From assembly GCF_016861975.1 (NCBI RefSeq), contig NZ_BOMB01000004.1, positions 124,001 to 188,000 of the forward strand: a stretch of 64,000 nt of DNA, in the 5' to 3' direction. Both the position numbers and the translations under genes were made by a program. This document shows, piece by piece, positions 7,307 through 63,466 of this stretch. The notes under the pieces are model-generated. The model saw only the letters and a list, made by a program, of their open reading frames with translations, made no database searches and had not been told where the DNA came from. How positions within the stretch are numbered: position 1 is the first letter of the stretch; each line of letters begins with the position of its first letter. The stretch is from Actinocatenispora rupis (GTDB lineage: Bacteria > Actinomycetota > Actinomycetes > Mycobacteriales > Micromonosporaceae).

Positions 7307-7804
7307 ATGGCGACAAAGAAGGCACCAGACCCCATACCGACCACGTACCGGCGGGTCACGCCCTGCCTGGTGGTGAACGACGCGGGCAAGGCGCTGGAGT
7401 TCTACGGCGAGGTGTTCGGCGCGACCGTACGGCTGCGGTTCCCGGGGCCGGACGGCAGCATCGCGCACGCCGAGATGGAGATCGGCGACGCGGTGGTGAT
7501 CGTGGAGGACGCCAGCCCCTTCCTCGGTACGCAGGCGCCGCCGCCCGGTGGCCTGCCCGGCACCCCGGTGTTCCAGTACGTGTACGTCGCGGACGTGGAC
7601 GCCGTCGTGGCGCGCGCCGCCGAGCTCGGCGCGACCGTACGACGGCCGCCGCAGGACCAGTTCTACGGCGCGCGCGACGCGTTCATCCTGGACCCGTACG
7701 GGCAGGCGTGGACGGTCGCGTCGCACATCGAGGACGTCAGTAGCGAGGAGGCGACCCGCCGGATGACGGCCATGGCCGCGCGGACCACCGAGGAGGACCA
7801 GTGA
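7307..7804 (+). CDS. VOC/PhnB-like glyoxalase-fold protein
   Basis: The 165-aa protein shows the VOC fold of the PhnB-like group: VTPCLVVNDAGKALEFYGEVFGAT, AHAEMEIGDAVVIVED and FQYVYVADVDAVVARAAELGATV, ending FYGARDAFILDPYGQAWTVASH. It lacks a clear full metal triad, so catalytic activity is uncertain. It is the first gene of an operon with a YCII protein and an ECF sigma factor; its TGA overlaps the next GTG. Homologous small VOC/DGPF proteins commonly accompany ECF42 sigma genes. Confidence 0.8.
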   Translation: MATKKAPDPIPTTYRRVTPCLVVNDAGKALEFYGEVFGATVRLRFPGPDGSIAHAEMEIGDAVVIVEDASPFLGTQAPPPGGLPGTPVFQYVYVADVDAVVARAAELGATVRRPPQDQFYGARDAFILDPYGQAWTVASHIEDVSSEEATRRMTAMAARTTEEDQ

Positions 7805-61121: not shown

Positions 61122-61987
61122 CCGGCCTCGTCACCGCGTCGGACCGCCGGCGCCCACGCATCCGGCTCGCGCTCGGCTCGGTACAGGCGGCGCTGCTGCT
61201 GGCGGTCGTCGTCGAAGGCGCCGGCCCGATCCTGTGGATGGCCAAGGGATCCGTCACCGGTACGCAGGAGTTGCTGCACCACCCGCTCGCGCTGCTGCCG
61301 ACGAGTCCACAGTGGAGCAACCTGGCGCATGCCTGGACCGACCTGCAGATCGGCCACTACCTGTTCAACACGGTCGTCCTCGTCGGCGGATCCTGGCTGG
61401 TACAACTGATCGTCGCCACCACCGGCGGGTACGCGCTTTCCGTCCTGCGCCCCTGGTTCGGCCGGTACGTCTACGGCGCGATCCTCGCGACACTCTTCAT
61501 CCCGGCCACCGTCACGCTGATCGCGCAGTACCAGACGATTCTGCACCTGCCCGTGCTCGGCCTGAACCTGGTGAACACGCCCGCCGCGGTGTGGCTGCCC
61601 GCCGGCGCAAACGCTTTCAACATCCTGCTGGTGAAACGCTTCTTCGACGCCATCCCCCGCGACCTGTACGAGGCGGCCCAGGTCGACGGAGCCGGCCCGT
61701 TCGCCGTGTTCTGGCGGATCGTCCTGCCGATGTCCACGCCGATCCTCGCCGTCGTGTCGCTGCTGACCGTCATGGGTGCGTGGAAGGAGTTCCTGTGGCC
61801 GATGCTCGCGATCAGCGACCCGGCGAAGCAGCCGCTCGCGGTCGCATTGCCGCGGCTCGCGCAGTCGTCCGACCAGGCACTGCTCATCGCCGGCCTGTTC
61901 ATCGCGTCGCTGCCACCGCTCATCGTGTTCCTCATCTTCCAGCGGTACATCATCCGCGGCGTGGCGTTCACCGGCGTCAAGGGGTGA
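61118..61987 (+). CDS. Sugar ABC transporter permease (MalG/UgpE type)
   Basis: The 289-aa protein is the second permease. The EAA motif is DLYEAAQVDGAGPFAVFWRI followed by VLPMSTPILAVVSLLTVMGAW. The C-terminus ends IIRGVAFTGVKG, the typical MalG-like GxxxGAVKG end. The ATG overlaps the preceding stop (ATGA), and GGAGGTGGAG precedes it. A TCCACAGTGGA copy lies in codons SPQWS. It ends the importer operon. Confidence 0.92.
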   Translation: MTGLVTASDRRRPRIRLALGSVQAALLLAVVVEGAGPILWMAKGSVTGTQELLHHPLALLPTSPQWSNLAHAWTDLQIGHYLFNTVVLVGGSWLVQLIVATTGGYALSVLRPWFGRYVYGAILATLFIPATVTLIAQYQTILHLPVLGLNLVNTPAAVWLPAGANAFNILLVKRFFDAIPRDLYEAAQVDGAGPFAVFWRIVLPMSTPILAVVSLLTVMGAWKEFLWPMLAISDPAKQPLAVALPRLAQSSDQALLIAGLFIASLPPLIVFLIFQRYIIRGVAFTGVKG

Positions 61988-62225
61988 CGGTGTCGCGGGG
62001 CGGGCCCGCCCCGCGACCGGTTGTACGGCCCCGAACCTTGGACGCCGAGCCGGATCCCGCCGCGCCCGGCGGGGGCGTACCGACCGGAAGAGCAGACGCC
62101 GAGCCGGATCCGCGCGGCATGGTCGAGTCATTGCTGCTGGGCTGGCGGCGGCTCGTGGACGTTCGCCGCCGGCTCGTCCCGGGTACGGGCGCCGGGGCGA
62201 GCGCGGCAACGCTGGCCGCTCACAT
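61988..62225. other. Gene-free stretch after the importer operon
   Basis: A plus-strand frame (MVESLLLGWRRLVDVRRRLV, ending AAHILFNC) is weakly protein-like and stops inside the AT-rich palindrome. It has no family similarity. No hairpin terminator is obvious. Confidence 0.4.
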
Positions 62226-62270
62226 ATTGTTCAATTGTTGAATTGTTCAACAATTGAACAATTCAACAAT
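62226..62270. repeat. 45-bp AT-rich double palindrome built of TTGTTSAA units
   Basis: Two overlapping perfect palindromes are present. 62226-62242 pairs with 62246-62262, and 62234-62250 pairs with 62254-62270, each with 17-bp arms and a 3-nt centre. The whole is a series of ATTGTTCA / ATTGTTGA octamers followed by their complements (ACAATTGA, ACAATTCA). The GC content is about 25% in a genome above 70%. It is probably a multi-dimer operator or a recombination/hairpin site. Flanking genes on both sides are more than 200 bp away. Confidence 0.85.
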
Positions 62271-62491
62271 CGGGGCTCAAGATCCACTCGGCGCGAACTC
62301 GCATCATCCCACGAAGAACGGTGCGGTTGAGCCAAAGCAGCTCCCCCACCGGCACGCCCGGGATCAGGGACCGGCCTCCATCGCCGCCGCGCTCACCGTT
62401 GACACCGTGGTCGACCTCGCCGAGTGCCCGTCCGGCGTACTCGACTCGGCGTGTGCGCTGCTACGGATCGAGCCCGTATCCCGATTGCGCG

Positions 62492-63466
62492 TCACCCCGG
62501 GCTGGGCTGCCGCCACGTAGCGGGCTTGTCGGCCGCGAACGTCCGGCGGTACGCGTCCGGCCCGGTATCGAACGTGCGGCGGAAGTGTCGCCGCAGCGCC
62601 GCGGCCGTCCCGAAGCCGGCGCGTTGCGCGACGAGATCGACGCTGAGGTCGGTGCGTTCGAGGAGGTGCTGGGCCCGGCGGAGCCGCTGGGTGTGCAGCC
62701 ACTGCAACGGGTTGGTGCCGACCCGGGCGTGGAAGTGCCGGTTGAGGGTACGGGTGCCGAGGTGGGCGCGCGCGGCGAGGTCCTCGACGGTGATCGGGTG
62801 GTCGAGATGGTCGAGCGCCCAGTCGAGTACGGGGGCGAGCTGGTCGTACGACGAGGTCGGCTCGGTGGTCGCCACGTACTGTGCCTGGCCGCCGTCGCGG
62901 TGCGGCGGGGTGACGAGCTGGCGGGCGATCTGGTTGGCGACGGCGGCCCCGTGGTCCCGCCGTACGACGTGCAGGCAGAGGTCGGTGCCGGCCGCCTTGC
63001 CGGCCGAGGTGAGCACCCGGCCCTCGTCGAGGTACAGCACCGCCGGGTCGACGGTGGCCGCCGGGTACCGCGCGGCGAGCGTCGGCGCGTGCCGCCAGTG
63101 GGTGGCGGCGCGCCGGCCGTCGAGCAGGCCCGCCTCGGCGAGGACGAACGCGCCGGTGCAGATGGACATCACGCGGGCGCCGTTGTCGTACGCGGTGCGG
63201 ACGGCGGCGACGAGGTCCGCCGGTGGGCGCAGGTCGCCGTCGTGGCAGGCGGGGACGACGACCGTGTTTGCGCCGACCAGGTCCTCGTACGTGTGCTCGG
63301 TCGCGGCGCGGAACCACCGGTCGACCCGTGCCCCGGCCGGGCCGCACACGCGGAAGTCGTACCAGGTGGTGGCGGTGTCGGGGCGGGGGGCGCCGAAGAT
63401 CGCGCAGGGCGCCGCCAGCTCGTACAGCGGGACTCCGTCGGAGAGGGCGAGGGCCACGGTGTGCAT
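62492..63466 (-). CDS. GlxA-family transcriptional regulator (DJ-1/PfpI + AraC HTH)
   Basis: The 324-aa protein has a class I glutamine-amidotransferase-like/DJ-1 N-terminal domain. Evidence includes HTVALALSDGVPLYELAAPC, the nucleophile-elbow-like ARVMSICTGAFVLAEAGLLD with a Cys, and ATHWRHAPTLAARYP. It has a C-terminal AraC HTH (ITVEDLAARAHLGTRTLNRH, FHARVGTNPLQWLHTQRLRR, AQRAGFGTAAALRRHFRRTF). The Cys suggests a sensor fold. It diverges from an MFS transporter 71 bp away, which it probably controls. Confidence 0.92.
   Translation of the reverse strand: MHTVALALSDGVPLYELAAPCAIFGAPRPDTATTWYDFRVCGPAGARVDRWFRAATEHTYEDLVGANTVVVPACHDGDLRPPADLVAAVRTAYDNGARVMSICTGAFVLAEAGLLDGRRAATHWRHAPTLAARYPAATVDPAVLYLDEGRVLTSAGKAAGTDLCLHVVRRDHGAAVANQIARQLVTPPHRDGGQAQYVATTEPTSSYDQLAPVLDWALDHLDHPITVEDLAARAHLGTRTLNRHFHARVGTNPLQWLHTQRLRRAQHLLERTDLSVDLVAQRAGFGTAAALRRHFRRTFDTGPDAYRRTFAADKPATWRQPSPG

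Follow-up and report, generated by a model that had tools for sequence, protein, structure and literature searches.

The AT-rich palindrome at positions 62226–62270 of the window, the 64-kb stretch of DNA that was analysed, probably belongs to a family of small palindromic elements, restricted to one lineage and interspersed at about 70 places in the source genome, which are most likely non-autonomous and selfish. Taken together, the results on distribution, context, copying and function lead us to regard the members of the family as small insertion elements of palindromic build that are probably non-autonomous. Descriptions of interspersed palindromes in bacteria usually take all copies back to a single consensus; what the present family keeps is a grammar, namely a phase of 8 bp, anchors of TGT/ACA, a single change of orientation and, in single chains, a length of 8n+3.

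The window copy holds two interlocked perfect inverted repeats with 17-nt arms (100% complementary) and 3-nt loops, exactly where the preliminary description had reported them, and, as stated there too, it is built solely of TTGTTSAA-type octamers in high-GC surroundings (window GC 72.8%). The first repeat spans 62226–62262, with arms ATTGTTCAATTGTTGAA (62226–62242) and TTCAACAATTGAACAAT (62246–62262), while the second spans 62234–62270, with arms ATTGTTGAATTGTTCAA (62234–62250) and TTGAACAATTCAACAAT (62254–62270); these repeats, and the core that they share, are given without strand. Among perfect inverted repeats with arms of at least 13 and loops of 0–5, they are the top two in the 64-kb window. 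The core is an octamer chain of 43 bp (62227–62269; 8 × 5 + 3), which reads TTGTTCAA, TTGTTGAA, TTGTTCAACAA (the 11-bp switch), TTGAACAA and TTCAACAA. The words abut, since a pattern with a 3-base gap between them, TTGTTSAANNNTTGTTSAA, gave 0 matches. The lowest-GC 43-mer of the window begins at 62224 and has 23% GC, compared to 42% for the next unrelated one, and the segment 62216–62292, treated as single-stranded DNA, has a folding energy of −16.4 kcal/mol, with a z of −5.2 relative to 200 dinucleotide-shuffled sequences. On one side only, at 62278–62288 (+ strand), lies CAAGATCCACT, a variant of the outer cap CCAAGATCAACT that is found 5–14 bp outside some other copies; the motif AAGATCMA/TKGATCTT has a single match in the 64-kb window, at 62279, beside the window copy.

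The copy sits in a gap of approximately 500 bp that separates the end of an operon on the + strand from the end of a gene on the − strand, so both neighbours end toward it. The + side neighbour is an ABC transporter operon, encoding a solute-binding protein and two BPD_transp_1 permeases (Pfam), and further upstream of the operon lies a divergently oriented gene for a GntR/LacI-type regulator; the − side neighbour is a DJ-1/PfpI-AraC type regulator gene, the end of which faces the copy. The earlier statement that no adjacent gene explains the palindrome stands. An 88-aa open reading frame at 62254–62520 gave no Pfam match at E 0.001, no sigma-70-like site was found around the copy, and an Rfam scan gave nothing near the gathering score (E 0.61 and 0.95 on the element, best elsewhere 0.17). 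Immediately 3' of the permease stop codon, a 26-bp perfect GC palindrome with 13-bp arms was observed at 61992–62017, which is possibly the 3' hairpin of the transporter operon; the terminator scan, which requires a T run, passes over it.

The source genome (7.83 Mb, a draft in 81 contigs, completeness 96.81) contains many further arrays. The pattern TTGTTSAATTGTTSAA, with up to 2 mismatches, matched it 113 times on the forward and 107 times on the reverse strand, compared to 0 + 0 for the reversed control pattern, and chance is therefore not the explanation. Similarly, blastn with a 65-bp stretch against the same genome gave dozens of places among the matches listed, to which later searches added further ones. 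Elements were delimited by a chain rule (YTGT in steps of 8, ACAR in steps of 8, one switch of 7), by which the window copy is the sole element in the 64-kb window. The first 60 loci yielded 62 elements, in 59 of the 60, and seven additional places taken from BLAST matches yielded one each, giving at least 69 elements in 66 of the 67 loci fetched, or at least 70 places if the degenerate element at L147, which fails the rule, is included. Over 20 contigs carry copies, and the sequence on either side of them is GC-rich. All 69 elements are distinct, and since no pair is identical, recent bursts are not evident. The statistics on context, flanks, folding and words given below use the first 62 elements, folding being assessed on 47 single chains and word usage on 77 chains. 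By eye, the spread over contigs looks uneven, with 12 of the 62 on C23 (325 kb) and 3 of the 62 on C1 (610 kb).

All elements are chains of 8-bp words that switch once to their reverse complements; YTGTTCAA, YTGTCCAA, YTGTCTCA and YTGTGTCA are examples. Both arms draw on one vocabulary, in the first 62 elements TGTTCAA, TGTCCAA, TGTCTCA, TGTGTCA, TGTTGAA, TGTCGCA, TGTTGAC and TGTGCAC together with rarer words. Single chains are 8n+3 bp long, as a consequence of the chain rule, and range from 27 to 75 bp: 47 of the 62 are single chains of 35–75 bp, and one copy added later has 27 bp. The remaining 15 of the 62 are merged chains, some of which depart from 8n+3. Composition separates the elements from their surroundings (GC 0.354 vs 0.713 in the flanks of the 62 elements).

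The ends recur as well. Position −1 is A in 109 of the 124 flanks and position −2 is G in 75 of the 124, which yields the GATTGT/ACAATC ends, and terminal inverted repeats of the form GATTGTYCAA...TTGRACAATC are common, although this is a weak test since the element body consists of the same words. Further out, the cap TCGATAGG adjoins the core in 7 of the 124 flanks of the first 62 elements, and CAAGATCA occurs at +5 to +14 in 13 of 124, compared to 0.06 expected; the CAAGATCC of the window copy is a variant that falls outside this count. AAGATCMWC points outward in 16 flanks and inward in 3 (18 and 8 when one mismatch is allowed). Because outer caps recur, the repeating unit seems to extend beyond the palindrome in at least part of the copies. 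At L101, L102, L111, L113 and L135 the elements are directly adjoined by a third recurrent motif, either GGTACGACCGATTA or something close to it, in the manner of an alternative cap.

The elements fold better than versions in which words were shuffled within arms, though modestly so (mean z −0.43, Wilcoxon p 0.02, 47 single chains), and at no layer did word identity at mirrored positions reach significance (p 0.96, 0.08, 0.51 and 1.0). The palindromy mostly results from the use of one vocabulary in opposite orientations. This modest pairing beyond word content, together with the non-significant mirrored identity, was counted against the reading of the family as mobile palindromes, and the conserved TGT anchors would fit a binding constraint too.

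The family is confined to one sampled genome. The pattern TTGTYSAAYTGTYSAA matched the source genome 63 + 54 = 117 times and three congeners 0 times, and among 246 other genomes of the taxonomic family it gave one match each in four, while the control pattern matched once, in another genome; no chain formed at any of the four loci. When a 3.5-word pattern was run against a phylum sample of 396 genomes, the source genome was the sole match. Against the genome collection, from which own-genome records may be excluded, a 24-base pattern gave one match, in a Flavobacterium MAG, where the array consists of direct TTGTCTCA/TTGTCCAA repeats; as a looser pattern gave 7 + 0 matches there and 2 + 2 for the control, this case is weak. 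In the phylum of the MAG a 3.5-word pattern matched 4 of 247 genomes and the control 0, and the five Bacteroidota arrays that were read from these genomes are direct repeats without an orientation switch. Four patterns found 0, 1, 3 and 1 stretches in viral contigs, one contig being matched twice, and plasmid records, from which own records may be excluded, gave no match.

Evidence for copying comes from a few sets of elements. The loci L200 (contig C7) and L201 (C25) share 120 bp around the element, 92.5% identical and sharply bounded, which is the sole forward match between the two 5-kb loci, and for this pair the block is therefore a discrete unit in two unrelated surroundings. On account of this unit, the reading as mobile elements gains, while explanations by a binding protein or by termination slightly lose. 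The outer ends of the block (2444–2563 in L200, 2467–2586 in L201), CGGCTSAAACG on the left and CGYTCAGCT on the right, look mutually inverted. Between the siblings L097 and L105 there is a difference of 24 bp inside the element, while the sequences to its left and right are similar. L142 and L143 differ by 8 bp and have stretches of 69 bp (83%) on the upstream side and 22 bp (95%) on the downstream side in common; a third sibling is L120. L121 and L122, approximately 7 kb apart and inverted, have their ends in common and different interiors. Long common flanks are absent in most other copies, so copying is demonstrated only for these few sets. No clear duplication of the target emerged, the mean longest target-site duplication being 1.29, compared to 1.01 (sd 0.17) for shuffled pairings.

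A comparison with the congeners was possible at a site between a glutamine-amidotransferase gene (PF00117), taken to be hisH, and the hisA-type gene (PF00977) beside it. The gap between aligned blocks measures 124 bases in the source genome compared to 29 in two congeners, and 141 compared to 44 in the third. The congeners carry a TCCACTGTGGA palindrome in this gap, and since the element accounts for only part of the additional DNA, the site is not a clean empty one.

The positions of the elements relative to genes were assessed with a home-made gene caller. Among the first 62, 30 lie in tandem gaps, 19 in convergent gaps and 7 in divergent gaps, while 6 overlap a predicted gene, leaving 56 of the 62 outside predicted genes; of the seven elements added later, 4 lie in tandem gaps, 2 in convergent gaps and 1 in a divergent gap. 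Against a background of 139 element-free gaps of more than 50 bp, some of it counted twice since L092 and L093 overlap, convergent gaps hold more elements than expected (19 vs 8.5, p 0.006) and divergent gaps fewer (7 vs 20.5, p 0.0009). The 30 tandem cases are split, with 17 closer to the upstream stop and 13 closer to the downstream start.

Five elements (L101, L121, L131, L136 and L145) lie in-frame well inside predicted genes, with 162–617 codons on either side. Their hosts encode a GAF/PucR-type protein, an aromatic-ring hydroxylase, a sacsin-like protein (a sub-threshold match), an FAD/FMN oxidoreductase and a protein with an endonuclease/exonuclease/phosphatase C-terminal domain. At L101, L121 and L136, the element is either flanked by Pfam domains on each side or spanned by one. 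The element of the sacsin-like protein sits in a linker, which differs in sequence and length in two congeners. The in-gene cores are 43–67 bp long and all different, as are the peptides that they encode, and no peptide conserved across copies was found (69 of 69 elements distinct). The sixth overlap, L142, is at the end of a DJ-1/PfpI-AraC type gene. Mostly intergenic, favouring convergent and avoiding divergent gaps, and tolerated in some coding sequences, the family behaves like REP, RPE or MITE elements.

An element lies within 300 bp upstream of 36 genes. A Pfam scan of 20 of these 36 revealed diverse functions, including histidine and purine biosynthesis, a Nudix hydrolase and a GTPase, and 4 of the 20 encode helix-turn-helix proteins (two GntR/FCD, one TetR and one Ada/AraC type). 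These contexts bear on the main rival explanation, possible though in our judgement unlikely, by which a single lineage-specific protein, such as a global regulator or nucleoid protein, would bind the arrays cooperatively, with one subunit or dimer per word. An analogy is offered by the met boxes for MetJ, 8-bp words that each take one subunit or dimer. The regular 8-bp phase, the small TGT/ACA-anchored vocabulary, the presence of several words per site and the location of most elements outside predicted genes are consistent with such a protein, and the four helix-turn-helix genes could hint at regulation. However, the elements do not appear to lie upstream of co-regulated genes, as an operator array would, given the diversity of the downstream genes (20 of 36 scanned) and the deficit in divergent gaps, and the excess in convergent gaps, the five copies well inside predicted genes and the absence of the pattern from three congeners argue in the same direction. 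The narrower idea that the window copy is a lone operator is not supported, as it is one of about 70 copies and lies between two convergent gene ends; the case also cautions against taking an isolated AT-rich palindrome for an operator when the genome is high in GC.

Hairpin formation and the excess of convergent gaps would suit bidirectional terminators or mRNA-stabilising 3' hairpins, which we nevertheless consider very unlikely: the terminator scan of 61900–62600 gave 0 sites, the likewise unflagged GC palindrome at 61992–62017 already follows the stop of the transporter operon, the tandem cases are divided between upstream stops and downstream starts, and copies occur within genes. A role as cruciform sites for chromosome maintenance or site-specific recombination, suggested by the palindromes and by the apparently uneven spread (12/62 on C23, 3/62 on C1), is likewise very unlikely, as length and word order vary, no two copies are alike and the pattern is absent from three congeners. 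Finally, the preliminary description raised the remnant of a lost regulatory gene and, as a separate matter, an artefact of assembly or contamination; both are scarcely credible, with about 70 copies beside unrelated genes on many contigs in GC-rich sequence, and with five of these copies in-frame within predicted genes.

Under the reading as non-autonomous insertion elements, the AT-rich core, with words in one and then the other orientation, would be able to fold into a hairpin, usually framed by GATTGT/ACAATC and sometimes by the outer caps TCGATAGG and CCAAGATCAACT. An enzyme would move the elements, perhaps through a folded single strand, and copies diverge via gain or loss of whole 8-bp words plus base changes; for the host, the elements would presumably have no function. 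Arrays of this kind are said to accompany GIY-YIG or four-helix-bundle genes. Profile searches for a mobiliser covered PF01797 and PF05635. The Y1/RAYT transposase (PF01797) gave 0 matches in the source genome, compared to profile matches in 5 of 14 control genomes, while the four-helix-bundle profile (PF05635) gave 0 in the source genome and 0 in its control too, which makes this second search uninformative. A recurrent neighbour gene that could serve as mobiliser was not found in an all-against-all comparison of 301 predicted proteins (families ≤5).

In the literature searched, no published description of the present octamer-word family was found, and the known systems REP/REPIN, RPE, BrickBuilt and TAACTGA each match part of the family and each differ in a defining respect. 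According to two papers (PMC3733652, PMC3116915), REP/REPIN sequences, which occur with RAYT, are short, palindromic, mostly extragenic and present in many copies per genome, some REPs lying inside genes. The octamer family is likewise palindromic, high-copy (at least 69 by rule) and mostly extragenic (56/62 outside predicted genes), but position counts over the first 62 revealed no common GTAG/CGTC end tag, the RAYT/Y1 transposase of REP systems was not found in the source genome, and variable 8-bp words take the place of one stem sequence. Rickettsia palindromic elements, as described in a review of MITEs (PMC10969869), are approximately 150 bp long, in-frame in unrelated genes and encode conserved peptides; the octamer elements are also palindromic and in-frame in unrelated predicted genes, though with cores of 43–67 bp in five such genes, none alike.

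The BrickBuilt MITE of Porphyromonas gingivalis (PMC4596501) has a 23-nt unit and is always intergenic, with 19 copies in one strain. It resembles the octamer family in a tandem-repeat core framed by a leader and tail with small inverted repeats, in multiple copies and in a limited host range; the octamer family differs by 8-nt words in two orientations, which give a palindrome. Terminal inverted repeats (by the weak test above) and a discrete unit in unrelated surroundings (L200/L201) are features of MITEs that the octamer family displays. The TAACTGA heptamer arrays of Beggiatoaceae (PMC4679880) are 7-nt direct repeats of a fixed word, non-palindromic and mostly just upstream of start codons; as in the octamer family, one genome holds numerous short-unit arrays, of which some fall within ORFs, and their distribution across phyla is patchy. 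The arrays from the Flavobacterium MAG, other Bacteroidota and viruses (L148, L149, L183, L184, L186–L189 and L196) have the same YTGTNNMA word class and 8-bp phase, but number one or few per genome and are direct repeats of simpler words.

A more speculative proposal, to which we give a rather low probability, is that a moving or copying enzyme as yet undescribed recognises the octamer words as its units. The ends and the body of such a mobile element would form a modular code of interchangeable 8-bp words, which would expand and shuffle word by word and have simpler direct-repeat relatives scattered in Bacteroidota and phages. If this were true, the family would represent a class of mobile DNA defined by a word grammar and not by a fixed sequence. 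Searches for conserved repeats could miss the octamer family because each copy examined has its own sequence. As the family is confined to one sampled genome and is in-frame in few genes, its mobility, its partner enzyme and the gain of new peptides can be tested.

Some minor observations were made alongside. By eye, the direct octamer arrays of the Bacteroidota loci L186 and L187, around position 1500, lie in apparent open reading frames. In the viral contig at L184, runs of the octamers GTGAAACA and CTGTTCAA face opposite ways at 7650–7760, just upstream of a possible start codon. A second palindrome, TCCACWGTGGA, recurs with 7 matches in the window and 8 in 25.8 kb of congener loci (L161–L163 and L169–L171); one of its places is the intergenic stretch that precedes the hisA-type gene in each of three congeners.
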